Source of the DNA: a virus
Strand: one strand, 5' to 3'
Virus record (IMG/VR): IMGVR_UViG_3300044681_000202
Coordinates: 1-30,102 of that record
Length of the DNA stretch: 30,102 nucleotides
Shown: one piece after another, positions 4,347 through 29,169 of the stretch
Layout of the letters: each line of letters starts with the position of its first letter
How positions within the stretch are numbered: position 1 is the first letter of the stretch
Notes under the pieces: generated by a model
Databases searched by the model: none
What the model was told of the DNA's origin: nothing
What the model saw: the letters and a program-made list of their open reading frames with translations, nothing else
Program-made: the position numbers and the translations under genes

Positions 4347-4971
4347 ACTACACCCATCTGTTTATGACATAGTGCCTAGCGTTGCTAGCAATGTGTATAA
4401 GAATTACAGGAAGTTTGTTGAGCGTGATGACGTCAAGCAAGAGTGTTTGCACTGGGCTATGACTCGTGCTGTCTATATCAACGAGCAGTTAGGTGAAGAG
4501 GATACAGACAAGCGCAGACATAACGAGCAGAAGATAGCGTGGCAGATGAAGCGTGCAGCTGAACGCTACTGTCGCAAGGAGAAGGCTCACAAGTCTGGCT
4601 ACCAGTTGGGGGACGAGGCATACTACGAGAGCGCAACGCTGGCGCAGTTGCTTCCCTTTGTTATTGCATCAGTACTAGATGGCACAGTGCTAGAGCAAGC
4701 ACAAGAGATGATTCAAGATGGTATGCCTAAGGGTTCATCAAGCCCAGCAGAAGGTGGCAACCTGCTTGCTACACTGATTGATATTAAGAAGGCCTACGTT
4801 GAACTAGAAGAAGAGGATCAGCGCATACTTACGTTGCGCTACCACGAGAACCTTACCCTTGCACAGATAGGCGTAGCCTTGGGTTGTCACTTCACTACTG
4901 CAGACCGCAGATGTAACAGTGCAATGCGACACCTAAATAATCTACTCGGTGGAACCAGTCCGTACAAGTGA
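4339..4971 (+). CDS. Sigma-70 region 4-like transcription factor
   Basis: A 210-residue protein from a GTG with GGAAAG just upstream; an ATG at 4306 in the same frame would add 11 residues but lies deeper in the previous gene. The C-terminal 50 residues (EEEDQRILTLRYHENLTLAQ, then IGVALGC and RRCNSAMRHL) have the layout of a sigma region 4 helix-turn-helix, which contacts the -35 element. The N-terminal half is helical and charged, without a clear region 2. It may be a phage sigma-like factor or a regulator that borrows the region 4 fold. Together with WhiB it suggests redirection of host RNA polymerase. Confidence 0.65.
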   Translation: MTELHPSVYDIVPSVASNVYKNYRKFVERDDVKQECLHWAMTRAVYINEQLGEEDTDKRRHNEQKIAWQMKRAAERYCRKEKAHKSGYQLGDEAYYESATLAQLLPFVIASVLDGTVLEQAQEMIQDGMPKGSSSPAEGGNLLATLIDIKKAYVELEEEDQRILTLRYHENLTLAQIGVALGCHFTTADRRCNSAMRHLNNLLGGTSPYK

Positions 4972-5351
4972 ACGAGTTAATACTCTTTGACTTTCTTAAG
5001 CTCAATCTCTACCCAGATTTAGAGCGTGCGCCTGGTATCTATGATGCCTTCGATTGTACTAGCGCAAAGGCCGGTCACTTCATCGAGTTGAAGTGTCGCC
5101 AAACCCATTATTCTACGCTACTTATAGAGCAGATGAAGTATCGCAAGCTCATCACGCAGGCATACCACCGCGACCTTCTGCCCTTCTATATCAATAGCAC
5201 ACCGCTTGGCATCTACTCCTTTGATCTTACAGAGATAGACGAGCCTGAATGGTTTGTCCACCCAATGCCAGCGACTACAGAGTTTGAGAACACCACCAAG
5301 GTTGATAAGATAGTAGGGTATTTAGATGTGGAAGATGCGGTGAAGTTATGA
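4968..5351 (+). CDS. Putative PD-(D/E)XK-like phage protein
   Basis: A 127-residue protein from a GTG that overlaps the preceding stop (GTGA). Residues 28-41 contain DAFDCTSAKAGHFIELKCRQ-like spacing, with an acidic residue about 10 before the Glu-x-Lys pair, as in small PD-(D/E)XK nucleases; a helix with QMKYRKL follows. This arrangement is suggestive but minimal. It overlaps the next zinc-ribbon gene by 4 bases. Alternative: a structural or inhibitory protein without nuclease activity. Confidence 0.5.
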   Translation: MNELILFDFLKLNLYPDLERAPGIYDAFDCTSAKAGHFIELKCRQTHYSTLLIEQMKYRKLITQAYHRDLLPFYINSTPLGIYSFDLTEIDEPEWFVHPMPATTEFENTTKVDKIVGYLDVEDAVKL

Positions 5352-6483: not shown

Positions 6484-6512
6484 TTGACAGTATAAATCAA
6501 TTACTTTAGAAA
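6484..6512 (+). promoter_or_regulatory. Possible rightward promoter running into the double hairpin
   Basis: A perfect TTGACA (6484-6489) is followed after 17 bases by TAGAAA (6507-6512), a moderate -10. Initiation would be near 6519, at the 5' edge of a strong hairpin, and would give an RNA antisense to the leftward small genes. It could be chance; no gene on this strand starts nearby. Confidence 0.35.
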
Positions 6513-6515
6513 GCA

Positions 6516-6563
6516 CTAACCCCCACCGGAAAGAGTAACGGTGAGGGTTAGCTCCGTTAGGAG
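6516..6563. terminator. Double hairpin at the end of the leftward small-gene module
   Basis: Arms CTAACCCCCACCG (6516-6528) and CGGTGAGGGTTAG (6539-6551) pair over 13 positions with one mismatch around a 10-base loop. Directly next to it CTCC (6552-6555) pairs with GGAG (6560-6563) across a GTTA loop. It lies 8 bases past the stop codon of the last leftward small gene, the place for a terminator, but has no T-run on either strand. Actinobacterial terminators often lack one. It could also stabilise RNA ends. Confidence 0.55.
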
Positions 6564-6570
6564 GGCTTGC

Positions 6571-6732
6571 TTATTGTAACACAGATATTGCAACGTGGCA
6601 GGGGTCGCCACCATCATCCCATTCTTCGCGTTCTTCCTCCGTCATATACTCATAGTTGCCTTCGTGGGTAGCGCAGTAAGGCTTGCTTACCCAACCCATT
6701 CTGATCCCCAGTCTTAACCAGTATCTAAACAT
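6571..6732 (-). CDS. Small actinophage-type protein (53 aa)
   Basis: The protein contains WVSKPYCATHEG (residues 14-25), an acidic helix EEEREEWDDGGDPCHVAI, and ends at VLQ. The pair Cys20/His23 and Cys45/His46 could bind a metal. The combination YCxxHEG ... GGDPC is typical of short conserved actinophage proteins of unknown function. It overlaps the preceding 29-residue frame by 8 bases and is the last gene before the double hairpin. Confidence 0.75.
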   Translation of the reverse strand: MFRYWLRLGIRMGWVSKPYCATHEGNYEYMTEEEREEWDDGGDPCHVAISVLQ

Positions 6733-6814
6733 CAGTACCACCCTTTTCTGTCGCTGTGTCCGAGAGCGCTACACGAATCGCCTCGATAGCGGTGTTCTTT
6801 AATTTTAAGGCCAT
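6725..6814 (-). CDS. Very small peptide (29 aa) between two coupled genes
   Basis: The ATG lies inside the last codons of the endonuclease VII gene, and the stop overlaps the following 53-residue gene by 8 bases. The sequence starts MALKLKNTAIEAIRVALSD, an amphipathic helix. It may be a genuine micropeptide or a coupling frame that hands ribosomes to the next gene. Overlap on both sides is the only support. Confidence 0.45.
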   Translation of the reverse strand: MALKLKNTAIEAIRVALSDTATEKGGTDV

Positions 6815-7215
6815 CTCTTCGTTACGCTCCACTTCCCTAGATATTTCTCTGCCTTTTCTTTCCAAAGGTTATTCTCTAGCACTCCCAATTTGATATTACA
6901 GGGTGAGCATAGTAAACCTCGTATACATTTACCGCAGGTCTTTTCGGTAGGGCAACACGAGTGGTCGTGGTCTACGTGGAATCTTCCCCTACCCTCAGGT
7001 TGAGGTGAACTACACACAGCGCAACCACCGCCTTGCTCTTCGAGCATACGATCATAGTCTTCAAGCGTAATCTTATACTTGTATTTAAGGGTTGCGCTCT
7101 TCTGCTTCTTAGGATTAGAAGCATACTTAGCACGAGCAGCTTCCCTATCCTTCGCCCTGTATCTTTGCTTCTGCTCCTCGGTGCGAGGGTGGTCTTTGGG
7201 ATTCTTATATGGCAT
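6805..7215 (-). CDS. Recombination endonuclease VII (HNH/His-Me finger)
   Basis: A 136-residue protein with a basic, helical N-terminus (1-45) followed by the T4 endonuclease VII-like module: ITLEDYDRMLEEQGGGCAVC (49-68), VDHDH (81-85), and RGLLCSPCN (99-107). Cys65/68 and Cys103/106 would hold structural zinc; His83 and Asn107 belong to the active site. These enzymes resolve branched DNA or, in phages, nick near packaging sites. The ATG shares its A with the stop of the lysozyme gene upstream (TGATG). An extra Cys pair (CCPTEKTCGKC, 87-97) is inserted between the two halves. Confidence 0.9.
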   Translation of the reverse strand: MPYKNPKDHPRTEEQKQRYRAKDREAARAKYASNPKKQKSATLKYKYKITLEDYDRMLEEQGGGCAVCSSPQPEGRGRFHVDHDHSCCPTEKTCGKCIRGLLCSPCNIKLGVLENNLWKEKAEKYLGKWSVTKRWP

Positions 7216-7634
7216 CAGTACCAGCCTCGTTGGTCGCTATGGGCTTTGGCTCTGCAAGCATCGCCTTTGTAGCGGTGGTTAATGTACTTAATACCTCGAA
7301 GGATTTGTAATTCAGGTCGTGAACTACGCTCTCCAAGGAGTTGAGCAATTCCATAAGCTGAGCTTCCGCGCTGGTTCTTGGCAAGGTGGTCAAACCTGCT
7401 CTCACGGGTCCATAGGGAGACAAGGCATTCTGTCTGCTTTTTCGTATATCCGAGAGCGCGACTATATTCCCTTGCGATTGTCTTGTTCTCACGCTTCTCC
7501 TCCCCTGTCGCCTTCGTCCTCGCCGTTATTATCGGCTTGTGGTCTAGCTGTGGTAGTACTGGCTCGTGTATCCATAGTGCTAGCAATAGTGTTACCAGCG
7601 ATATCAAGCCACCTTTTACCCATACGCTCATCAT
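7215..7634 (-). CDS. Membrane-anchored lysozyme/transglycosylase-like lysis protein
   Basis: A 139-residue protein with one N-terminal hydrophobic segment (about 8-21, GGLISLVTLLLALW) that acts as signal anchor or signal peptide, a charged linker, then a short SLT/lysozyme-like domain from about residue 58. Key features are the catalytic-type Glu78 in LWTRESRF, SSAYGIAQLL (91-100), and the late KYINHRY and HSDQRGWY. This pattern matches the small actinobacterial transglycosylase/resuscitation-like family. It would cleave peptidoglycan from outside the membrane. Its first 146 bases overlap the upstream gene in another frame. A phage lysin role is inferred from fold and anchor. Confidence 0.8.
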   Translation of the reverse strand: MMSVWVKGGLISLVTLLLALWIHEPVLPQLDHKPIITARTKATGEEKRENKTIAREYSRALGYTKKQTECLVSLWTRESRFDHLAKNQRGSSAYGIAQLLGERSSRPELQILRGIKYINHRYKGDACRAKAHSDQRGWY

Positions 7635-7785
7635 TTGCCCTCTCCTGCTCTAGTAATTCCTTATAGTCATCAGGGTGGGCATTAGCCAACCTTGCTAGAG
7701 CGCGATCCCGCGCTCGTCTGTAGTTACGCTGACGCACCGCCATATTGTTGGCGGTGGCTATCCTTCTTGCTACGTCATCAGTCAT
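7489..7785 (-). CDS. Conserved actinophage hypothetical protein (98 aa)
   Basis: The first 60 residues form a strongly basic helix-rich region (ARRIATANNMAVRQRNYRRA, then RDRALARLANAHPDDYKELL) of a type widespread in actinophages; the remaining 38 are Thr/Ala-rich, then acidic and probably disordered. That disordered tail is encoded across the membrane anchor of the lysozyme gene in a second frame, a 146-base overlap. It starts 8 bases inside the preceding 27-residue membrane peptide. Function unknown; nucleic acid or ribosome binding is possible from its charge. Confidence 0.75.
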   Translation of the reverse strand: MTDDVARRIATANNMAVRQRNYRRARDRALARLANAHPDDYKELLEQERANDERMGKRWLDIAGNTIASTMDTRASTTTARPQADNNGEDEGDRGGEA

Positions 7786-7861
7786 TAAGTTTCTCCTCCA
7801 AACGTATAAGAGCGTAGCCTAGCAGTAGCACTAGCCCTAGCCCTATCCAGTACAGCATCAT
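7778..7861 (-). CDS. Tiny membrane peptide (27 aa), possible lysis accessory
   Basis: The frame starts ATG-ATG after an AAGGGGGAG ribosome binding site. It encodes MMLYWIGLGLVLLLGYALIR followed by LEEKLND: one transmembrane helix with a short charged cytoplasmic end. It overlaps the upstream zinc protein by 4 bases and the downstream gene by 8. Position two genes before the lysozyme makes a holin-like or regulatory role conceivable, though 27 residues is shorter than known holins. Confidence 0.55.
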   Translation of the reverse strand: MMLYWIGLGLVLLLGYALIRLEEKLND

Positions 7862-8010
7862 CTCCCCCTTGAATCTACTAGGCTTAGGTATTTATATTCG
7901 CGCTCGCACTCCGAGCAATATCCACACTCCCCACAGGCCGTTCCTGTAAAGGTGATGCACTCCGGGCAGTAAAGGCTCTCACCCTCTTTCTCACACTCTT
8001 CGCAGATCAT
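7858..8010 (-). CDS. Cys-rich zinc protein (50 aa)
   Basis: A GGGAGG ribosome binding site lies 7 bases before the ATG, which overlaps the previous stop (ATGA). The protein has eight cysteines in four CxxC pairs: CEEC, CPEC, CGEC and CSEC, so two zinc sites in a rubredoxin- or treble-clef-like micro-domain are likely. No family can be named. It is one of several Cys-rich microproteins in this leftward module. Confidence 0.75.
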   Translation of the reverse strand: MICEECEKEGESLYCPECITFTGTACGECGYCSECEREYKYLSLVDSRGR

Positions 8011-8249
8011 CTACTAGCCTCCCTTACTAGCTCGGTTACGTCTAGCGGTTGGCCTACTAGGTGAGCATCTTCCTCGTCACTATCCCACCCCGATACAAGG
8101 ATACGAGCTGCGGTTGGTGAATTAGCTATCCACTTCAGCGCCTCCTCCGGGCGTTCTCCTCCCCATTCAGCGTTGCCGTCCTCGTCCACCACCTCATATA
8201 GCAGAATTAACGGTGACTTGCGTGGGTGGAAACTGATTACGTTACTCAT
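8007..8249 (-). CDS. Conserved small phage protein (80 aa)
   Basis: The protein begins MSNVISFHPRKSPLILLYEV, then has WGGERPEEALKWIANSP (29-45) and ARILVSGWDSDEEDAHLVG (48-66). It looks like a compact alpha/beta domain with an acidic surface. ATGA overlaps join it to both neighbours. I recognise the style of a conserved actinophage hypothetical but no function. Confidence 0.7.
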   Translation of the reverse strand: MSNVISFHPRKSPLILLYEVVDEDGNAEWGGERPEEALKWIANSPTAARILVSGWDSDEEDAHLVGQPLDVTELVREASR

Positions 8250-8371
8250 TCACCTTGCTCCCATTCCCCGCAGGCTTGGCAATGCCAGTCACCTATGGCT
8301 TGATTGTAGACCAGTTCATCTATCCCACAATGTACGCAGGGGTGTTCCGTATATCCGTCAGTCATACTCAT
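8246..8371 (-). CDS. Zinc-ribbon microprotein (41 aa)
   Basis: A 41-residue protein with two cysteine pairs, CVHC (12-15) and CQAC (31-34), separated by a short beta hairpin with DWH; this is a minimal zinc ribbon. Its ATG directly follows the stop codon of the upstream gene (TAAATG) and its end overlaps the next gene by 4 bases. Function unknown. Confidence 0.7.
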   Translation of the reverse strand: MSMTDGYTEHPCVHCGIDELVYNQAIGDWHCQACGEWEQGE

Positions 8372-8539
8372 TTACTCTCCCTCACTCTCATCTAGGTTAA
8401 AGATCCGTGCCATAGCTCGGTTCGCTCTCTTCATATTCCGGAGCGCTTCCGCTATTTCCTGCTTCTCTAGCTGCTTGCGTGCTAGGTCGCTGCATAGAGC
8501 AGCTTTAGCGAATAGATATTCTTTCGTTGGCTCGCTCAT
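8372..8539 (-). CDS. Small helical protein (55 aa)
   Basis: The ATG at 8539 has an AGAGGAG ribosome binding site 8 bases upstream and overlaps the preceding stop (ATGA); a longer in-frame start at 8581 lacks these supports. The protein is almost entirely helical and charged (EYLFAKAALCSDLARKQLEK, then ALRNMKRANRAMARIFNLDE), resembling a small dimerisation or regulatory peptide. No family recognised. Confidence 0.65.
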   Translation of the reverse strand: MSEPTKEYLFAKAALCSDLARKQLEKQEIAEALRNMKRANRAMARIFNLDESEGE

Positions 8540-8763
8540 AGGTGATGCTCCTCTCCGTCTAGTACTAGCGTGACTAGGCAAGAATGTGCAAAATTAAGTG
8601 GATCTATTCCTAGCTCACCGGTGATAGATTCCCTTGCTAGCTCTTCTGCTTTATCCCTAGCCTCTTCGCTCATATTGCCTACGGTATCGTCTAGCTCTAC
8701 CGATACTTTCGTGGTGAGTACCCAGTAGTTGCCTACGAATTCCACGTTATAGTCGTACTCCAT
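8536..8763 (-). CDS. Small hypothetical protein (75 aa)
   Basis: The ATG at 8763 follows a GGGAGGGAAA ribosome binding site; a start at 8811 would run through the 22-residue Cys peptide gene. The protein starts MEYDYNVEFVGNYWVLTTKV (beta strands), has an acidic helix in the middle (SEEARDKAEELARESI), and ends with a beta strand CLVTLVLDGEEHHL. It looks like a small folded domain of unknown function. Confidence 0.65.
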   Translation of the reverse strand: MEYDYNVEFVGNYWVLTTKVSVELDDTVGNMSEEARDKAEELARESITGELGIDPLNFAHSCLVTLVLDGEEHHL

Positions 8764-8831
8764 TACTTTCCCTCCCTCTCGCATATACATAACCACTCTA
8801 CTTGCCCGCAATCATCGCAATAATCTTTCAC
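8763..8831 (-). CDS. Cys-rich micropeptide (22 aa)
   Basis: A GTG frame behind an AAGAGGGC ribosome binding site encodes a peptide with CDDC and CIC separated by a short strand, ending EREGK; four cysteines could hold a single zinc. Its stop shares a base with the ATG of the next gene (TAATG). It is very short, but the spacing, the ribosome binding site and the many similar neighbours make it credible. Confidence 0.5.
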   Translation of the reverse strand: MKDYCDDCGQVEWLCICEREGK

Positions 8832-8869
8832 TACTTGCCCTCTTTCTCTCTCCCTCACCCGCGTCTACG

Positions 8870-8904
8870 GGTAGGTCTGCCCTAACAGTTAGGTGCAGAC
8901 TACC
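8870..8904. other. Intergenic hairpin in the leftward module
   Basis: GGTA and GTCTGC (8870-8873, 8875-8880) plus CCTAA (8881-8885) pair with TTAGG (8889-8893), GCAGAC (8895-8900) and TACC (8901-8904), leaving a CAG loop and two single-base bulges. It lies in the 113-base gap after the 60-residue gene. The 3' arm GCAGACTACC recurs at 9856-9865 downstream of the clamp-like gene's promoter side. It may be a processing or termination signal; there is no T-run. Confidence 0.5.
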
Positions 8905-8944
8905 ACACTCTCCCCTATATGTGAGAGAGCGCGATAGTACGCGC

Positions 8945-9127
8945 CTAAAGATAGTTGGCTAGGCTCTCGCTCACTCTCTCATAGGTAGCGTTACCGTTGC
9001 CATAGCTCTTAACCGTAGCCCATAGGCCCGCGTTATCCTTAATCGTCTCTACGATTAAAGCCGGGGTTACTAGGTGCTCTCCCGATAGCGTAAGCACTAA
9101 ATCTTCTGCGCTCATAACTGTATCCAT
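8945..9127 (-). CDS. Small hypothetical protein (60 aa)
   Basis: The ATG at 9127 follows a GAGGAAGAGG tract. The protein begins MDTVMSAEDLVLTLSGEHLV and includes LIVETIKDNAGLWATVKSYG, so a helical fold with a mild resemblance to small regulatory domains, but no family is recognised. Both sides carry intergenic hairpins (8870-8904 and 9167-9190), so it may be an independently processed unit. Confidence 0.6.
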   Translation of the reverse strand: MDTVMSAEDLVLTLSGEHLVTPALIVETIKDNAGLWATVKSYGNGNATYERVSESLANYL

Positions 9128-9166
9128 ATCCTCTTCCTCTCTCTTATCCGGCTAGGTACCGGCCAC

Positions 9167-9190
9167 CGCTCACCGCCTAACCGGTGAGCG
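9167..9190. terminator. Hairpin after the clamp-like gene
   Basis: A perfect 9-base-pair stem, CGCTCACCG (9167-9175) with CGGTGAGCG (9182-9190), and a 6-base loop. On the leftward transcript it starts 12 bases past the stop codon of the clamp-like gene and precedes the next gene by 40 bases. It suits a partial terminator or a processing hairpin; there is no T-run. Confidence 0.5.
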
Positions 9191-9202
9191 ATAGTCTCGC
9201 AC

Positions 9203-9820
9203 CTAGTCTCTAAATTTCATAGGCATAAGCAGCGCCCGCCACGTTACTTTATGGCCGGTTATTCTCACGCGCATAGGCTTAATCTCGCCGTGAAAGTAGA
9301 CCTTGATCCCTGCACCCTTGCCCGCTATCTTCCCGTAATCGGCCATAAAGGCGGGGTTAAAGGCCATACCGTCTACCGCTACCGGCTCTTTTTCGCTATC
9401 GCTAAGTAGCTGCTCTACGGGTGGATAGTTACCGCCTAATAGTGTTACCGTTAAAGAGTCGCCTAATGAGCTAGCGGTGAGAGTGTCACCGATACGCGAT
9501 AGCTGCACGCGGTTAGCCTTATGCGCCTTGCATAGAGTAATAATTCTCTTAATATCGTCTAGCGATATTAGAGACACGTCTAAACGCCCGTCTAGCGCGT
9601 GTAGCGTGCCCTCTATTAGACGGTATCTATCCGTAGCGCGTGCGGTGAGCGCCCCGCCTTCACTCTCAAGCTGCACCGCGTTAAGGGTAGGTAGGCTCTT
9701 ATCCTTAGACGCGTGCGTGCTAACGCCCTCTAGTAGAGTGAGCAAGCTCTCGCCCTCACTCTCCACATAATTTACCGCGTTAGCGCTCTCTTTCACTGTC
9801 TCTCTTTCGATCGTGTTCAC
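9203..9820 (-). CDS. Sliding-clamp-like protein (DnaN-related), short form
   Basis: A 205-residue protein with beta-clamp features: LPTLNAVQLESEGGALTARA (43-62) leading into ATDRYRL (62-68), the conserved strand-turn of DnaN, and the C-terminal ALLMPMKFRD, like the YLLMPVRL end of bacterial clamps. A bacterial clamp has three domains and about 370 residues; this has roughly half, so it may form a trimer-like ring of two-domain subunits or be a clamp modulator. It probably tethers a polymerase or repair proteins to DNA. The GTG start follows GAGGGAGA. It lies on the opposite strand from the other replication genes. Confidence 0.75.
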   Translation of the reverse strand: MNTIERETVKESANAVNYVESEGESLLTLLEGVSTHASKDKSLPTLNAVQLESEGGALTARATDRYRLIEGTLHALDGRLDVSLISLDDIKRIITLCKAHKANRVQLSRIGDTLTASSLGDSLTVTLLGGNYPPVEQLLSDSEKEPVAVDGMAFNPAFMADYGKIAGKGAGIKVYFHGEIKPMRVRITGHKVTWRALLMPMKFRD

Positions 9821-9844
9821 ATTCTCCCTCTTTCATAGGTTAAA

Positions 9845-9887
9845 TCTGCCTAGTGGCAGACTACCGGCCACCGCGTAAGCGGTGACC
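9845..9887. other. Two tandem hairpins upstream of the clamp-like gene
   Basis: TCTGCC (9845-9850) pairs with GGCAGA (9855-9860) around TAGT; next CACCGC (9869-9874) pairs with GCGGTG (9879-9884) around GTAA, with CGG/CCG extending it past one mismatch. They occupy the 79-base gap between the 43-residue membrane protein gene and the clamp-like gene on the leftward transcript. The segment GCAGACTACC links this element to the hairpin at 8870-8904. Confidence 0.5.
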
Positions 9888-9899
9888 GATAGACCGCAG

Positions 9900-10031
9900 C
9901 TAGTACTCTTTCCCGGTGAGCTTAGCGATTAGCCACCATATAGCCTCCACCGCTACCCATAAGAGCACGCCGGCCACCGCGTAAGCTGCTATCGCTAGCA
10001 GCACGCTCACTAAATAGAGCAGCTCACTCAT
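9900..10031 (-). CDS. Small two-helix membrane protein (43 aa)
   Basis: The frame encodes MSELLYLVSVLLAIAAYAVA followed by GVLLWVAVEAIWWLIAKLTG and KEY: either one long or two short transmembrane segments with a basic C-terminus. This resembles small phage holins or superinfection-exclusion proteins. It overlaps the preceding small gene by 8 bases. A lysis role would be consistent with the membrane-anchored lysozyme further along the same transcript but is not shown. Confidence 0.65.
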   Translation of the reverse strand: MSELLYLVSVLLAIAAYAVAGVLLWVAVEAIWWLIAKLTGKEY

Positions 10032-10137
10032 TATCTTCACTCTCTTCTTTTGGCGCGGGTATATATTCAATAGAGCCACGGCCTAGAGCGTTTAGGCGCA
10101 CCGTGTAGGCGTGGCGTAGGTCTACGTTCTCGCTCAT
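10024..10137 (-). CDS. Small hypothetical protein (37 aa)
   Basis: The ATG shares its A with the preceding stop codon (TAATG) and the end overlaps the membrane protein gene by 8 bases. The peptide begins MSENVDLRHAYTVRLNALGR and ends with an acidic tail (KEESEDNE). No family or function recognised. Confidence 0.55.
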   Translation of the reverse strand: MSENVDLRHAYTVRLNALGRGSIEYIPAPKEESEDNE

Positions 10138-10499
10138 TAGAGCCACCGGTGCGAGAGCTTATAGCCGGCTCTCTCTTCGCCGTGAAAGAGCACGCTAGAA
10201 AGGTTATAGACAAGGTGAAAGCCCATATCCATTCCGCACCCGTGCACACGTATCGCGTCGCTACCGTTGCGAGAGACTAGCCTATCTCCCGTCGCTTTCG
10301 CTGCGCTGTAATTAATGTGGTAAGGCTCTCCATTCTTAATATAAACTAGAGAGATATCCCGCGACATACCGGAAGAGCTAACGTAGCGCAATACTGTATA
10401 AATAACCGGCTTATCATCTCCGGCGAAAAGGTTACGTAATCTTTCTATGCTCTCGCTGCGCTCTAATTCTGCTGCAGCTTTCTTAGTTAGTGTAGTCAT
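10137..10499 (-). CDS. Conserved actinophage protein with GCGMDMGF motif
   Basis: A 120-residue protein with several highly conserved-looking blocks: VIYTVLRYVSSSGMSRDISL (32-51), IRVHGCGMDMGFHLVYNLS (83-101) and GYKLSHRWL at the C-terminus. Proteins with this set of motifs are common in actinophages, and also occur in other phages, as hypothetical proteins. The Cys-containing GCGMDMG loop might be an active or metal site. It is linked to its neighbours by one-base overlaps. Confidence 0.8.
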   Translation of the reverse strand: MTTLTKKAAAELERSESIERLRNLFAGDDKPVIYTVLRYVSSSGMSRDISLVYIKNGEPYHINYSAAKATGDRLVSRNGSDAIRVHGCGMDMGFHLVYNLSSVLFHGEERAGYKLSHRWL

Positions 10500-10768
10500 T
10501 AGTTAGTCTCCTTAGTAGTGCCGTAATAGCAAGCGTTACAGTAGCCGTATAGTGCGTTATCTGCATTCTTATAGCAGATAACACATAGACTTTCTAGTAG
10601 TCGCTGCACCATAGCTAAAGCCTCACTATAACCTTGCTCGTATAAACGGTTAACAGTATCGTCAAAATTTTCTTTATAGTCGCTATCAAAAGTAGCGCGC
10701 TCTAGCTTTTCGTAAGCCCAATAGCTGCGCTGATATTCTGCATTTATTTTTTCAACTATCTCTTTCAC
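10499..10768 (-). CDS. Hypothetical protein with C-terminal zinc ribbon (89 aa)
   Basis: The first 55 residues are helical (EIVEKINAEYQRSYWAYEKL and onward), and the last 30 contain CVIC and CNAC, a zinc ribbon. The GTG at 10768 has only a weak ribosome binding site (AGATAGAAAA). It appears to be the first well-supported gene of the leftward module after the control region. Function unknown. Confidence 0.65.
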   Translation of the reverse strand: MKEIVEKINAEYQRSYWAYEKLERATFDSDYKENFDDTVNRLYEQGYSEALAMVQRLLESLCVICYKNADNALYGYCNACYYGTTKETN

Positions 10769-11037
10769 TTTTCTATCTCTTTTCTGTAGCCGTGTTAGGT
10801 GGTGGCCACAGGATAACGATAGCAGAATTTATAGGTGCGTCTACCCCATTTAGAGGGTAATTTTTCGATCGTGGAATTGTGACCTATCGGCTATCGGGTA
10901 GCCGGTGGCCGGTAGCTGCAGCGGTTAGCCGGTGGCCTATGGCTATCTCTTAGCAGCTGCACCGGTGGAGAGCTGCACCGGTTAGGCGATTACTTAACGG
11001 GCTAGGGCTTAGCGGATAGCGGTTACTTAATGAAGAG
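10769..11037. other. Non-coding stretch with iteron-like repeats
   Basis: No credible gene is seen here. It contains an 8-base palindrome GTGGCCAC near 10813, a possible leftward -10 (TATAAA, near 10831-10836 read on the minus strand), direct repeats between 10899 and 10982, and a further pair, GATTACTTAACGG near 10987 and GGTTACTTAATGA near 11023. It separates the leftward genes from the remaining control region. Confidence 0.6.
10899..10982. repeat. Iteron-like direct repeats, candidate origin or operator
   Basis: TAGCCGGTGGCC occurs exactly at 10899-10910 and 10926-10937. AGCTGCACCGGT occurs exactly at 10955-10966 and 10971-10982, with a one-mismatch copy (AGCTGCAGCGGT) at 10914-10925. 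The core CGGTGGCC also recurs as its complement in gaps at 9161-9168 and 9866-9873 and inside the membrane gene at 9972-9979. Clustered short direct repeats near a divergent junction suit protein binding, for an origin or a regulator. Confidence 0.6.
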
Positions 11038-11752: not shown

Positions 11753-13598
11753 CGCCGATATAGCCAAGAGGATTATCCTCGGCTGCGTCGCAGAAGGTAT
11801 GACCATTGAGGCCGCTTGCGGCTCAGCTGGTAAGAGTCTTAAGACGTACGAGTATTATCGTCGCACCGATAAGGTTTTTGCAGATAAGGTAGATCGTACC
11901 CGTCTCGGCCTGAAGGATAAAGCCTTTGCCTCAGGGGATGTCCACGATATAGATTTCGCCGAGTTCCGTCAGCGCTTCCTACACAGCCGGACCTTTCCGC
12001 ACCAGCAGAATCTAGTAGATGTGATTGAAGGCCGTGAACCTTCTTGGCTACATCCTAGTATGAAGTTCGAGCCGGGCCTTGCCTCTAACCGCGTACTGAT
12101 TAACATTCCGCCAAACCACGCCAAGTCCATCACAATCACGGTGGACTACGTAACGTGGAAGGTCGCCCAGAATCCGAACTTTAGAGTTCTGATAGTTTCC
12201 CAGACACAGCAATTAGCTGCTGACTTTCTCTACGCCATCAAGCAAAGACTGACTCACCCGATGTATCAAGACCTTCAAGCGGCATACGCTGCTGGCGTAG
12301 GGTTTAACTCTAAGTCTGCATCTTGGCAGGCAACCCGTGTGACCTTTGGTGATGAACTCCGTGAGTCATCTGAAAAGGATCCAAATATCGAAGCCGTCGG
12401 TATCGGCGGTCAGATTTACGGTAAGCGTGCCGATATGATTATTGTCGATGACGCGGTCACCTTAAAGAACGCTAATGAGTTTGAGAAGCAGATTCGCTGG
12501 CTAACCCAGGACGTGCGTTCTCGTTTGAACCCTACTGGTAAACTGGTAGTTATTGGAACGCGTGTTGCCTCAGTAGATTTATACCGCGAGTTACGTCAAG
12601 AAGATAGATACCCAGGTGGCCTAGTACCTTGGAAGTATCTAGCGATGCCAGCCCTTTTAGAAGCGCACGAGGATCCCGATAAGTGGGTTACCCTCTGGCC
12701 GTACTCGGATGCACCATTTGACGGGCAAGAAGAATCCGATAAGAACGAAGAGGGTCTATATCCTCGCTGGTCTGGTCGTAACCTCTACAACGAACGTCAG
12801 GCTATGGATGCCTCAACGTGGGCGCTGGTCTACCAGCAACAAGATGTCTCTGAGAACGCAGCCTTTGACCCAGTATGTGTCAAGGGTTCGATTGATGGAA
12901 TGCGTAAGTCTGGCCGACTTGAGCCAGGACATCCGGGCCATCCAAAAGATTTAAGTGGCTTTTCTATTATCTGCGGTATGGACCCGGCCATCGTTGGAGA
13001 TACTGCAGCTATCTGTTATGCCGTAGACCGTTCCACCTCTAAGCGCTACATTGTAGATGCGCTTAAGGTCACACGCCCCTCACCGCAACAGATCCGCGAC
13101 ATTATCTTGAACTGGACTTCGCTCTACTCGCCCAGTGAGTGGATTATTGAGAAGAACGCTTTTCAGGCTTTTTTAACTCAGGATGAAGGCATTAAACAAT
13201 TTTTAGCATCTCGCGGCGTTCTCCTCAAGGAACACCATACTGGTTCTAATAAGTGGGACTCAGGATTCGGTGTTGCATCTATGGCTACCCTCTTCGGTAC
13301 CAAGCAACACGACGGTAAGCACCACCGAGATAACTTAATACATCTACCTAGTGACCAGACTGAAAACGTCAAGGCTCTTATCGAGCAGTTGATTACGTGG
13401 ACACCTACCACTAAGGGTAAGACAGATATGGTGATGGCACTCTGGTTCTGTGAGATTAGAGCAAGAGAGATGCTCAACTACGGCCAGTACGCCACCCACC
13501 ATTTGAAGAATCCATTTTTAACTAGCGCAGAAAAGCGCAAACGAGTAGTCGTCAATATAGACGAGATGCTTGCTAACCAGAACAAACTGTTCGTCTAA
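11739..13598 (+). CDS. terL: Terminase large subunit with N-terminal helix-turn-helix
   Basis: A 619-residue packaging motor. Residues about 8-55 (GMTIEAACGSAGKSLKTYEY is the core) resemble the helix-turn-helix of small terminase subunits. The ATPase follows: deviant Walker A PPNHAKS (124-130), Walker B MIIVDD (233-238), coupling motif VIGTR (271-275). The RNase H-like nuclease domain has acidic residues Asp415 in CGMDPA, Glu471 in IIEKNAFQ and Asp563 in KTDMVMALW. It would pump DNA into the prohead at the portal and cut concatemers. No separate small terminase gene is seen nearby, so the N-terminal domain may supply DNA recognition. Confidence 0.95.
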   Translation: MAENSADIAKRIILGCVAEGMTIEAACGSAGKSLKTYEYYRRTDKVFADKVDRTRLGLKDKAFASGDVHDIDFAEFRQRFLHSRTFPHQQNLVDVIEGREPSWLHPSMKFEPGLASNRVLINIPPNHAKSITITVDYVTWKVAQNPNFRVLIVSQTQQLAADFLYAIKQRLTHPMYQDLQAAYAAGVGFNSKSASWQATRVTFGDELRESSEKDPNIEAVGIGGQIYGKRADMIIVDDAVTLKNANEFEKQIRWLTQDVRSRLNPTGKLVVIGTRVASVDLYRELRQEDRYPGGLVPWKYLAMPALLEAHEDPDKWVTLWPYSDAPFDGQEESDKNEEGLYPRWSGRNLYNERQAMDASTWALVYQQQDVSENAAFDPVCVKGSIDGMRKSGRLEPGHPGHPKDLSGFSIICGMDPAIVGDTAAICYAVDRSTSKRYIVDALKVTRPSPQQIRDIILNWTSLYSPSEWIIEKNAFQAFLTQDEGIKQFLASRGVLLKEHHTGSNKWDSGFGVASMATLFGTKQHDGKHHRDNLIHLPSDQTENVKALIEQLITWTPTTKGKTDMVMALWFCEIRAREMLNYGQYATHHLKNPFLTSAEKRKRVVVNIDEMLANQNKLFV

Positions 13599-16648: not shown

Positions 16649-19600
16649 GTGGCTGATAATCTAAAAGCAGCCGCAGCTGCTGCAGGTTTAAGTCCAGATG
16701 AAAGAAAAGCAATGGAAGCATTGCAAAAAACTCTTTCTGTACACAGAGAATTATCAAACCTTCCGACACGAACTGCTCAACAAGCGTACGCTTCTAAGAC
16801 ACCTGAACAGCAGGCAGCGCTTAAGCGCGTAGCCGGAGAAGAAGATCCTGCTACTAAGCCACAGCGTGGTTGGTGGGGTAGCGCTTGGCACTATACAGGC
16901 GGTGCTTTGCTTCAGGGTTTACAGGAAGTTTCAGACCTAACAACTCGTGCTTATCGTGCTGCAGTTATTCCTATTGCAGAACGCGGTGAACTTGGATTTG
17001 CTTGGACAGAAGCCAATGACAAAGGCGACAAGGTATTCAATACAGGTCGTATCGAAAGAGCCAAGTCTAAGTTTGGTGTAGATCGCGTAAATGTAGCAAT
17101 GCGTGTTGCAGCTGGTGAAAAGTTATCAGATATTGCATCTTCAGGTACTATTGAAGAACGCAACATTGCAGCACTTGCTGCACAGAATAAAGATGATTTA
17201 TTCCAAGATGCGCTTGATGCTACTCAGGCTGCTAAGTACTCACCTGGTCGTCAGATTGCTAACCTTATTACTCCAGAAGAGGTAGAGGGTTCAGGCTTCT
17301 TTTATCGTGCGGTATCAGGTGCATTCGATGCAGCATACCGAGTATTAGCAGATCCACTACTTATTGCTGGTAAAGCAAAGCGTGCAGTTGATATCTCAAA
17401 TTACGCACTTGATGTGGTAATTGGTGGCGGTAAAGTAGACGAAGTATTTGCACGTCCACAAGTTCAAGACTTTTGGAATCAGTACGGCGCAGAGCTTGCT
17501 AACTACAAGAAGGCTATTAACGAAGGTGCTACACAAGAAGCAGTCAATATTAAGAGACGTCTTAATGTACTAGCACCAGAGTTTGGTGACCCAGTTATCA
17601 AGTCATTCATTGATATTGATGTACCAGTTACGGATGCTCTTACGGCAAAGGCTTTCTTCCAAAACGCTGACCAAGTAGCAGAAATGATGAAGGGCCAAAT
17701 TGGTCGCAAGCGCGTAATGATTCCACGTATGGACGCACTTCGCCAAGCACGCGTAAACGTAGTCACTACTGCTAACCGTATATTTAATATGGACAAAATT
17801 GCTCCACGCTTTATTGACGACCTTTATTTTGCTGGTGCTGCAACCGATGATGGCATAGCGCAAGCAATTATTGACGGCAAAGAAACTATCGTCACAAATG
17901 TTAAGGCAAAAGCAAATGCCAAGAAAACAGCACGTTTTTCTATGGAGCAAATTCAGTATAGAATTGATAGATTCAAGGCTAAGTTTAGTTTAGTTCCTTT
18001 CTTTGAAGATAGCCTCTTTGATGTAACTTCTGCAGACGGTGCTGAAAAGGTATATCGTTATGCACGTTTAATCTTGCCAAAGAACGATTCTAAACTTATT
18101 GCTCAGGCTTTTGATAATGCAGAAGTTGGCCGTAAGAAAGAAATCTTCTATGGCCTGCAGTCAACTATTGCAGACATTCGTGGTCTTAACGTAACAAAAG
18201 AAGGCAAGGTCATTTCAGACCCAATGCGTCTTGGTCCTAATAAAGTTTTTGCAGCTACAGATCCAAAAACCGGATACAACCCTGCTGCACTACCAGACGG
18301 CGAGCAGGTTGGTCTTATTCTATCTGACCTTTCTGATTATGTAACAACACTCAGTGTTCGTGATATTGACCGAGCAGCTGCGCGTTCTGGCCTTATACAA
18401 AGATTATTTGGTCTTGCACATTCTGGTTGGGTAGAAAAGATGACCACAGCCTGGTCATTCTTGACTCTTGCTGGTCCACGTTATGCCATCCGTAACGCAA
18501 CAGAAGACCTAATGGTCCACCTTGCAATCGGTGAATCTCCATTTGGTCTTGTTAAAGGACGTATGCTTTCTACCCGTTTGCGTACAGCACGTCAAATGGA
18601 AAAGGGCCTAACTGGTTTTGATGAAATATCTGCTAACCCACTTGGTGGAGTTATGCGCTTTGTCAATCGTAAAGAAGCAAAACGATACGGAGCAGAGATT
18701 GAAGCAGCTGACGGAGATGTTAAGAAAATCCGTGAGATTACTGCACGTGCTTTGAATGAAGGTAAGTTAACTCGCTTCTATGAGAAGGCTGGACTCGGTA
18801 AGTTTACAGACGATGATCGCGCTGCTTTAGCAGAGCAGATTCTATACGGTGACCTAGACAATGCCCTTATGGATGTCGTTGAAGGTGGTAAGAACGCATT
18901 TACCGGGCTTGATTCCTATACCCGTACTATTAACTTTACCCGTAAAAACAAAGTTCGTACAGCAGAATTATCGTACGATATAGAAAAAGGTCGCGTTGCA
19001 CTTGGTAGAGGTGCAGGTGGCTATAAGCCAATGGCTCCTATTGCAGATGAAGCATCACAAATTGCTTGGATTATGCGTATTGGTTATTACTCTAACGATA
19101 AGTTAGGTCGTATTGCGGTAGCAAACCTTTCAGATGATGCTGAAGAAGCAAAAGAAGCGGTAGCAAAGATTTCTGCGTGGTTGCAAGATCCAAAAAATGC
19201 TAAGTTAGTAGCAGCTTTCCGTATGGAAGAGCGCGGTATTAGCGTTGATGAACACGCACAGCGCGTCTATAATGCAGCAAAGCAGTTGTTTGTTAAGCAA
19301 GATGGCAAGATTAACCAAGATTTGTTGAGCAAAGTGCGTGCATTTGATGAGACTGCAGGCGAATGGCGTATTACAGGTAAACTTGGCTTAGACGATTTAC
19401 CAAAAGATATAGCAGATGTACCAACATACATTGTTGGACCACAGTTAGTACCTATCTCTGATAGCGAAAACTACGCTAGTTCCTTTATGGAGTGGGGATG
19501 GGACTGGTTAGGTAACGCTAACGCACGCCTATCACGCGAACCTATGGTTCTTGCTGAAATGATTAAGCTACGTAAGCAGTTTAAGAAGAGTGGCTTTGAA

Positions 19601-27770: not shown

Positions 27771-29169
<1,399 letters not shown>

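Follow-up and report, generated by a model that had tools for sequence, protein, structure and literature searches.

CTAG density follows nearest-neighbour composition

Why is CTAG so abundant in one block of small leftward genes of this phage? The initial annotation of the window, by which we mean the whole 30,102-nt stretch of viral DNA analysed here, counted 18 CTAG sites by eye in 8001-9210, 4 in 12001-13200 and 1 in 18001-19200, and described a high density from about 7500 to 10800. Exact counts reproduce all three numbers and place the dense region at ~7540 to ~10700. The module at 7481-11030 holds 40 CTAG in 3550 bp (11.3/kb), as against ~3/kb in its flanks (left, 21 sites over 5950 bp; right, 50 over 18364 bp). 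With independent bases only 13.3 sites are expected in the module; the contrast in density is genuine and greatly exceeds what base composition would give. Yet a trinucleotide (Markov-2) model predicts 39.1 sites, leaving no excess, and the contrast is carried by the di- and trinucleotide make-up of the module. For the whole window the same model gives 120 sites and 116 are present; hence, CTAG as such is neither preferred nor avoided in this phage. A pooled count gives 586 CTAG against a trinucleotide expectation of 650.

The annotation held that the excess would fall away if amino acids and codon use sufficed to explain it, and they do not. The genes of the module contain 33 CTAG, and 23.2±3.2 are expected when protein and codon use are kept. 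Codon use alone therefore accounts for 23 of the 33, and the rest needs nearest-neighbour composition: with dinucleotides also kept, the expectation is 32.1±2.6. For 134 homologous genes, this stricter null predicts 359±7 CTAG, and 354 are observed.

The annotation had also suggested that CTAG is used in a recognition or modification system. Selection on CTAG itself, whether as a recognition, modification or operator site, would fit the fourfold density contrast, and four CTAGs in the window do have a specific role, as helix strands in two copies of an RNA pseudoknot (elements 1 and 2, below). This explanation is nonetheless extremely improbable. It is contradicted by the trinucleotide expectations, both for the module and for the pooled count, and the dinucleotide-preserving coding null, over which there is no excess, leads us to reject CTAG as a functional site. 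We looked for a departure of CTAG counts from composition-matched expectation in the module and its relatives and found none. Since the counts fit a null in which protein, codons and dinucleotides are all preserved, and CTAG in sampled hosts is at 0.84-1.13 of expectation, a role in recognition or modification is unsupported. Before recognition sites are proposed from a tetranucleotide excess, that excess should be compared with the dinucleotide expectation.

A compositional island around a sliding clamp gene

The module is a compositional island of ~3.5 kb. The island, its genes and their leftward neighbours are as follows, all on the minus strand:

7481..11030, minus: compositional island, leftward small-gene block; CA/TG-poor, TA/CG/GAG/CTA-rich, 40 CTAG
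10499..10768, minus: island gene, 89 aa, without family match in PHROGs
10137..10499, minus: island gene, 120 aa, PHROG 12365 (function unassigned in PHROG)
9900..10031, minus: island gene with a hydrophobic 43-aa product, probably a small membrane protein; its TAG stop falls within element 1
9203..9820, minus: DnaN-like sliding clamp, 205 aa; the island is centred on it in relatives
8945..9127, minus: island gene, 60 aa, no assigned function; TAG stop within element 3
8536..8763, minus: island gene, 75 aa, no assigned function; 7 CTAG
8372..8539, minus: island gene, 55 aa, no assigned function
7215-7634, minus: transglycosylase-like gene, ordinary composition; internal control against a pure strand effect
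6805-7215, minus: endonuclease VII-like gene, ordinary composition; internal control, likewise
6571-6741, minus: leftward gene, ordinary composition; internal control, likewise

The island avoids the steps CA, AC, TG and GT, in which C is next to A or G next to T, and favours TA, AT, CG and GC; AG and CT are favoured throughout. CTAG profits most because it chains the favoured steps CT, TA and AG. At codon boundaries the values are CA.67, TG.70, AC.76, GT.73, TA 1.57 and GC 1.43 in the island, and 1.05, 1.15, 1.16, 1.13, 1.17 and 1.09, respectively, elsewhere. The signature is also present between genes, is near-symmetric between strands, and is inverted relative to both the rest of the phage and sampled host DNA. 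It recurs at the same place in relatives, around the clamp gene. We explain the excess of CTAG as a by-product of this island, which is conserved round a DnaN-like clamp among freshwater actinobacterial phages of one family. What appeared to be a restriction-type motif count thus marks a maintained island and, as described below, a structured RNA family without an Rfam match.

The assignment of the clamp is based on profile and predicted-fold matches. The protein matches PHROG 947 (processivity factor; E 6.8e-15) and Pfam DNA_pol3_beta_2 (E 9.6e-6, just short of its cut-off), it has two-domain length, and its predicted fold resembles DnaN/PCNA clamps in Foldseek (E to 3.6e-8), with the C-terminal third of the model being poor. 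Together, these matches identify it as a predicted sliding clamp of the DnaN/PCNA fold.

Comparison of gene families across loci indicates that the composition is regional and not family-bound; for example, the family of the gene at 8372..8539 has island composition only where its flanks have it. The island is weak or absent in some close relatives with a different leftward block (G010/L037, L080, L089, L093). Three simple causes were considered and rejected. A strand effect does not fit the ordinary composition of the leftward genes at 6571-7634. Presence of the clamp is not the sole determinant, given that clamp-less loci (L042, L048, L075, L101) have strong islands. RNA structure in coding sequences, with dinucleotides kept, is alike in the island (z -0.54) and elsewhere (z -0.48).

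These phages are related to cultured phages of abundant freshwater actinobacteria of the order Nanopelagicales. The host link of the window rests on distant relatives, the Ca. Planktophila phages E7 and F5 (OX376640, OX376641; PMC10202952), which fall broadly into one group with our phage (terminase 46%, portal ~50%); searching 85,000 genomes for the terminase yielded no relative. E7 and F5 have in common with our phage WhiB, a sigma factor and a complete lack of CATG, but their composition dips only weakly upstream of terL, and they have no match to the clamp or the element. CATG is wholly absent from the window and from nearly all relatives. A host nuclease of the NlaIII/IceA type was considered as the reason for its loss and rejected, as it occurs in 1 of 201 genomes from this order. 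The window also encodes a conserved 127-aa protein (4968-5351), a candidate for cleaving DNA that contains CATG.

Origin of the island

Either a separate origin or a different mutational or selection history had been put forward for the module. The second proposal is supported by the inverted dinucleotide signature, its recurrence in relatives, and its weakness or absence where another block is present. As the cause of the composition, a recent foreign source is unsupported. If the block had recently been acquired from a donor of other composition and were still unameliorated, it might be expected to show a history of its own, and it does: the clamp is 69% identical to that of phage G005, with just 26% identity between the two terminases, and close relatives carry island-free blocks. 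However, among clamps at 30-45% protein identity, the codons of conserved residues are 0.46 identical against 0.38 expected. Synonymous positions are thus nearly randomised, with the bias retained and no decay of composition with time since transfer, which argues that the composition is maintained. Moreover, all the host DNA sampled has a contrasting signature. Recent acquisition is therefore improbable.

We consider it equally improbable that the island reflects translational selection on genes expressed at another time. Codon-usage differences between early and late genes have been reported in some phages (PMC5683454), where, as here, a gene block has its own codon use, and the codon shift in island genes is strong (GAG.90 vs.48, CTA.42 vs.19). 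Here, however, the signature lies at the level of nucleotide steps: it persists across codon boundaries when codon use is fixed, and it extends between genes. In addition, the sampled host seldom uses the favoured codons (host-CAI.56, vs.68 for structural genes), and there are no tRNA genes in the window or in the loci of 20 relatives. We favour a maintained regional pressure on the transcription unit over recent foreign origin.

A predicted pseudoknotted RNA element between island genes

Three gene junctions in the island carry an RNA element with a common architecture: a strand (a) that spans the stop codon of the preceding gene, a long hairpin (P3, 12-29 bp) and a small hairpin (strands b and b'), the loop of which (a') pairs back to strand a (pairing P1). 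The topology is that of an H-type pseudoknot with an inserted hairpin, and the element ends ~23 nt before the next start codon. The copies in the window are:

9841..9905, minus: element 1, between gene 9900-10031 and the clamp; 57 bits, E 2.5e-12; seed. a = CTAG 9903-9900 (stop TAG 9902-9900), P3 9892-9861, b = TCTGC 9860-9856, a' = CTAG 9853-9850, b' = GCAGA 9849-9845
9146..9208, minus: element 2, after the clamp; 72 bits, E 1.7e-16; seed. a = CTAGGTG 9206-9200 (stop TAG 9205-9203), P3 9194-9163, b = CCGG 9162-9159, a' = TACCTAG 9158-9152, b' = CCGG 9151-9148
8876..8950, minus: element 3, after gene 8945-9127; 39 bits, E 2.9e-7; non-seed. a = TTAGG 8948-8944 (stop TAG 8947-8945), P3 8937-8900, b = TCTGC 8899-8895, a' = CCTAA 8893-8889, b' = GCAGA 8880-8876

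Elements 1 and 2 served as seeds of the covariance model and element 3 did not; the H2 loop of element 3 holds a competing inner hairpin. The window and its relatives, which are non-independent samples, contain 84 matches, 82 of them on the coding strand. A start codon lies downstream of 83 of the 84 copies, at a median of 23 nt. In 54% of copies, a stop codon, preferably UAG, occurs at offset +1 to +4, as compared to 2.3%.

Recurrence, strand, position, compensatory changes and pairing beyond a shuffled control are all shown computationally. A topology search gave 59 matches, and none in randomised sequence. Compensatory changes are strong, with 11 of 12 aligned P3 pairs changed on both sides; alignment A3 carries some bias towards P1 pairing, for which its copies were selected. 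A first permutation of the pseudoknot pairing gave 7.79 vs 7.21±0.39, the loops being alike among copies. When only the 5ʹ strand was shuffled, the pseudoknot strand was found in 36 of 64 non-redundant copies vs 10.1±2.6; about 44% of copies fail this strict test. Reversed sequence is not a clean control: most of its 35 matches are complements of, or overlap, real elements. Some island loci (L048, L054) have no covariance-model match. The Rfam covariance models gave no match to the element, which is a conserved RNA that appears to be previously undescribed. The number of elements rises as CA+TG falls (rho -0.64). This link is a correlation only, since island coding sequences are not extra structured once dinucleotides are kept.

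Possible functions of the element

What is the element for? Two adjacent hairpins that are strand-specific and intergenic, with a competing outer pairing in several copies, are features that transcription terminators, attenuators or put-like antitermination signals could share. We regard such a function as unlikely. No U-tract follows the elements, no terminator-like site is called there, and a search downstream of the elements for a hairpin followed by a T run found no intrinsic terminator. The ~23 nt to the start codon are too short for an ordinary promoter of the next gene, and promoter-like sites by the elements occur at chance level only.

The presence of a stop codon within P1 in most copies, the preference for UAG, and the short distance to the next start are all consistent with control of translation. 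A ribosome at the P1 stop might melt the pseudoknot and couple translation of the two genes, or the fold might insulate initiation at the next gene. The downstream ribosome-binding region, however, is not visibly within the fold, and we think this a rather doubtful, if serious, possibility.

We favour, and infer, a role in mRNA processing or protection. The element would act at the RNA level by cutting or protecting the polycistronic message, as an RNase III site and/or a block to 5ʹ-3ʹ RNase J, which would leave the clamp and adjacent genes on discrete, stable mRNAs; a terminating ribosome could open the structure. Both RNase III and RNase J are present in all three hosts searched. The predicted 12-29-pair stems are of the long double-stranded kind seen in RNase III sites in mRNA, and they may be cleaved there. 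The computed pseudoknotted fold is a feature of exonuclease-resistant RNAs, and the elements may halt 5ʹ-3ʹ exonucleases. As a single explanation, a CTAG excess that is a by-product of the island, together with an intercistronic pseudoknot for RNA processing or protection, is somewhat probable. If true, the element would be a phage pseudoknot that draws on one gene's stop codon to govern the fate of the next message. A broader proposal is no more than tentative: the elements may belong to a widespread class of phage intercistronic RNAs in which a stop-codon-anchored pseudoknot makes separately protected messages, the ribosome sets its state, and the avoidance of CA/TG arises from the same RNA-level regime.

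Parts of this arrangement have precedents. The RNase III sites of the T7 early region are long hairpins between the cistrons of a polycistronic message, adjacent to start sites, and the phage elements resemble them in this respect; we know of no stop-codon pseudoknot at those sites. The pseudoknotted xrRNA of flaviviruses likewise lies 5ʹ of the RNA that it protects and can block bacterial RNase J1 (PMC5760640), but the predicted phage element differs from it in topology and origin. Repeated stem-loops between small genes in a variable block are also found in T4-like phages as PeSLs (Arbiol 2010 and Comeau 2014, as presented in PMC4503421), which, according to that account, may aid gene shuffling. 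As described there, a PeSL joins an early promoter to a stem-loop; here, with the start codon at a median of 23 nt, no promoter fits, and the structure is a pseudoknot that holds the upstream stop codon. The leader of T4 gene 32 provides a phage pseudoknot upstream of a replication gene (PMC3014915). That pseudoknot is a single autoregulatory leader, whereas the elements described here are repeated, intercistronic and overlap stop codons.

CTAG density and short-word composition

The initial annotation had singled out CTAG as strikingly abundant in the module of small leftward genes (7200–10800), and its counts of 18 sites in 8001–9210, 4 in 12001–13200 and 1 in 18001–19200 were reproduced exactly. 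The density is real, but nothing about it is specific to CTAG beyond the local short-word composition. The 3550-bp module (7481–11030, minus strand) holds 40 CTAG sites, against 13 expected from independent bases, 36 from a dinucleotide chain and 39 from a trinucleotide (Markov-2) model, and the whole window holds 116 against 120 expected. Hence, CTAG itself is unremarkable beyond short-word make-up. Island DNA pooled from 21 loci contains 586 sites against 650 expected (Markov-2). For the module genes, the 33 observed sites compare with 23.2±3.2 under a null that keeps protein and codon use, and with 32.1±2.6 when dinucleotides are kept in addition; in a wider set of 134 genes that belong to these families, drawn from the window and its relatives, 354 sites compare with 268±10 and 359±7, respectively. 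CTAG stood out because it is a chain of favoured overlapping steps, CT-TA-AG.

Kinship of the virus

The window is a complete virus record of 30,102 bases, and is probably a genome fragment. It encodes a terminase, a portal, a major head protein, a WhiB-like protein, a sigma factor, a DnaB-like helicase and a primase; its relatives in IMG/VR are numerous. The terminase is 44–46% identical to those of Streptomyces phages and of phages E7 and F5, whose isolation host is Ca. Planktophila, order Nanopelagicales (PMC10202952). We infer a putative host for the window solely through such relatives. The structural region also includes a collagen-like repeat protein with G-x-T/P repeats (28108–29169, plus strand).

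A regional compositional island

The island surrounds the following gene:

9203–9820, minus strand: clamp-like gene, also matched by PHROG families 12598 and 3007, both named RusA-like resolvase

That name is probably wrong for both families, since the matched protein looks like a sliding clamp. With 22 loci aligned on the clamp gene, CTA rises from ~5 to 18 and GAG from ~5 to 17 per 500 bp within ~2 kb on each side, and CA+TG falls from 70 to 36. Across a whole genome such a dip occurs once, adjoining the terminase. The window and genomes G001, G002, G004 and G005 show it strongly, G006 has a weaker form, and G010 has almost none.

Once the order of amino acids and the codon usage are controlled for, all eight purine-pyrimidine and pyrimidine-purine steps across codon boundaries set island genes apart from other genes. 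CA, TG, AC and GT are down by about one third, and TA, AT, CG and GC are up by one third to one half, in both cases nearly equally on the two strands; most other steps change little. In the intergenic gaps of the window, the (TA+CG) share of YR steps is 0.66 within the island (only 529 bp) and 0.52 elsewhere. Gene families of the island carry the signature only where their flanks show it, and in the clamp gene the bias persists even between proteins of low identity, where codons have come close to saturation. In sampled DNA of LanE-43, the host strain of E7 and F5, no 1-kb segment exceeds 0.49 on the (TA+CG)/YR measure, none in other sampled hosts exceeds 0.59, and the codons favoured in the island are rare in LanE-43. 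Together, the codon-boundary, intergenic and flank-bound signature, the saturated clamp codons and the contrast to host DNA lead us to conclude that the island is under a maintained, regional, nucleotide-level pressure.

A recurrent RNA element between the leftward genes

Hairpins of at least 14 pairs occur at 0.63 per kb on the island coding strand, 0.07 per kb on the opposite strand and 0.06–0.09 per kb outside the island. Three intergenic gaps of the island fold with z scores of −4.3 to −5.3 relative to dinucleotide shuffles. The recurring element comprises, in order, strand a, a short linker, the long hairpin P3, and strands b, aʹ and bʹ, where a:aʹ forms a pseudoknot (P1) and b:bʹ a small hairpin. 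A search for the topology alone, free of any sequence requirement, recovered 59 copies from the window and its relatives (1.27 Mb) and none from randomised strand (1.05 Mb); these copies use 35 different a:aʹ and 31 b:bʹ combinations. When P3 and the b hairpin alone were used for detection, 81 of 93 copies fell on the coding strand of the island, and shuffled loci gave none; the pseudoknot strand was also present in 36 of 64 non-redundant copies, against 10.1±2.6 when the 5ʹ strand alone was shuffled. An alignment of 26 exact copies, partly biased for P1 because the copies were chosen for it, has changes on both sides at 14 of 18 pairs, and this signal is lost when the structure is slid by 1–3 columns. 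P3 contains conserved U-G pairs, which would be A-C mismatches on the opposite strand; this argues for an RNA of the coding strand.

A covariance model detected 84 copies once antisense duplicates were removed (26 are seeds of the model), with 82 on the coding strand, 80 in DNA of island composition and 83 no more than 60 nt from a start codon (median 23 nt). Across 29 loci, element number is inversely related to CA+TG (rho −0.64). The model found no element in E7 or F5 and no match in three host pieces, and a search of Rfam with the element also gave none. In related loci L009, L013, L019–L021, L082, L083 and L100, a variant before the clamp gene adds a small upstream hairpin (TCAC/GTGA) as its third, so that the two loops TAGGTA and TACCTA could kiss.

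What is the function of the element? We consider an mRNA processing or protection device most likely. Long double-stranded stems would fit a role of RNase III, and a pseudoknot directly ahead of the ribosome-binding region would fit a block to 5ʹ-3ʹ decay by RNase J. RNase J1 is blocked in vitro by one viral pseudoknot RNA (PMC5760640). RNase III and RNase J are both present in all three hosts searched. The nearest rival is translational coupling through the upstream stop codon, which P1 covers in most copies: this codon begins 1–4 nt downstream of the match's first base in 54% of cases, against 2.3% at random positions, and is TAG in 55 of 81 copies. The leftward genes read in the window have three TAG stops, each followed by an element, and the CTAGs at 9203 and 9152 are the two strands of one P1 helix, as those at 9900 and 9850 are of another. 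A terminator function for the element is less likely. Past the last leftward genes lies a separate 17-pair hairpin (6512–6555, minus strand), which is likely to terminate the leftward unit and has a similar counterpart in related locus L003.

CATG and other missing words

Independently of CTAG, CATG is absent from the window (0 against 82 expected). It is also absent from the relatives’ loci L001–L102 save L018 (37 sites), L092 (1) and the distant, GC-rich L022 (71), and 15 of 16 whole records contain no CCATGG. The cultured phages E7 and F5 (L103 and L104) completely lack the five palindromic tetranucleotides CATG, AGCT, GATC, CCGG and GGCC, words that stand at 0.81–1.03 of expectation in sampled DNA of LanE-43. 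A search of this host for three DNA methyltransferase families (PF00145, PF02086 and PF01555) gave no matches. Hence, classical restriction by LanE-43 is not the obvious reason for the loss of these words from E7 and F5. AGCT (100 against 173) and GATC (53 against 124) are depleted in the window too, mostly outside the island.

One further gene may bear on CATG:

4968–5351, plus strand: conserved phage protein of 127 aa with an invariant D..D..ExK signature

Its predicted model is confident (pLDDT 89), and the fold weakly resembles DpnI and Hjc-type resolvases, with E values between about 2e-3 and 2e-2. The modelled protein is thus a candidate PD-(D/E)xK nuclease, and might possibly be linked to the absence of CATG. 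Separately, an acI single-cell genome (G019:C11:148450-149736; loci L144 and L166) encodes, next to a C5 DNA methyltransferase, an NlaIII/IceA-like domain; among 201 Nanopelagicales genomes, only 1 has this NlaIII/IceA-like family.
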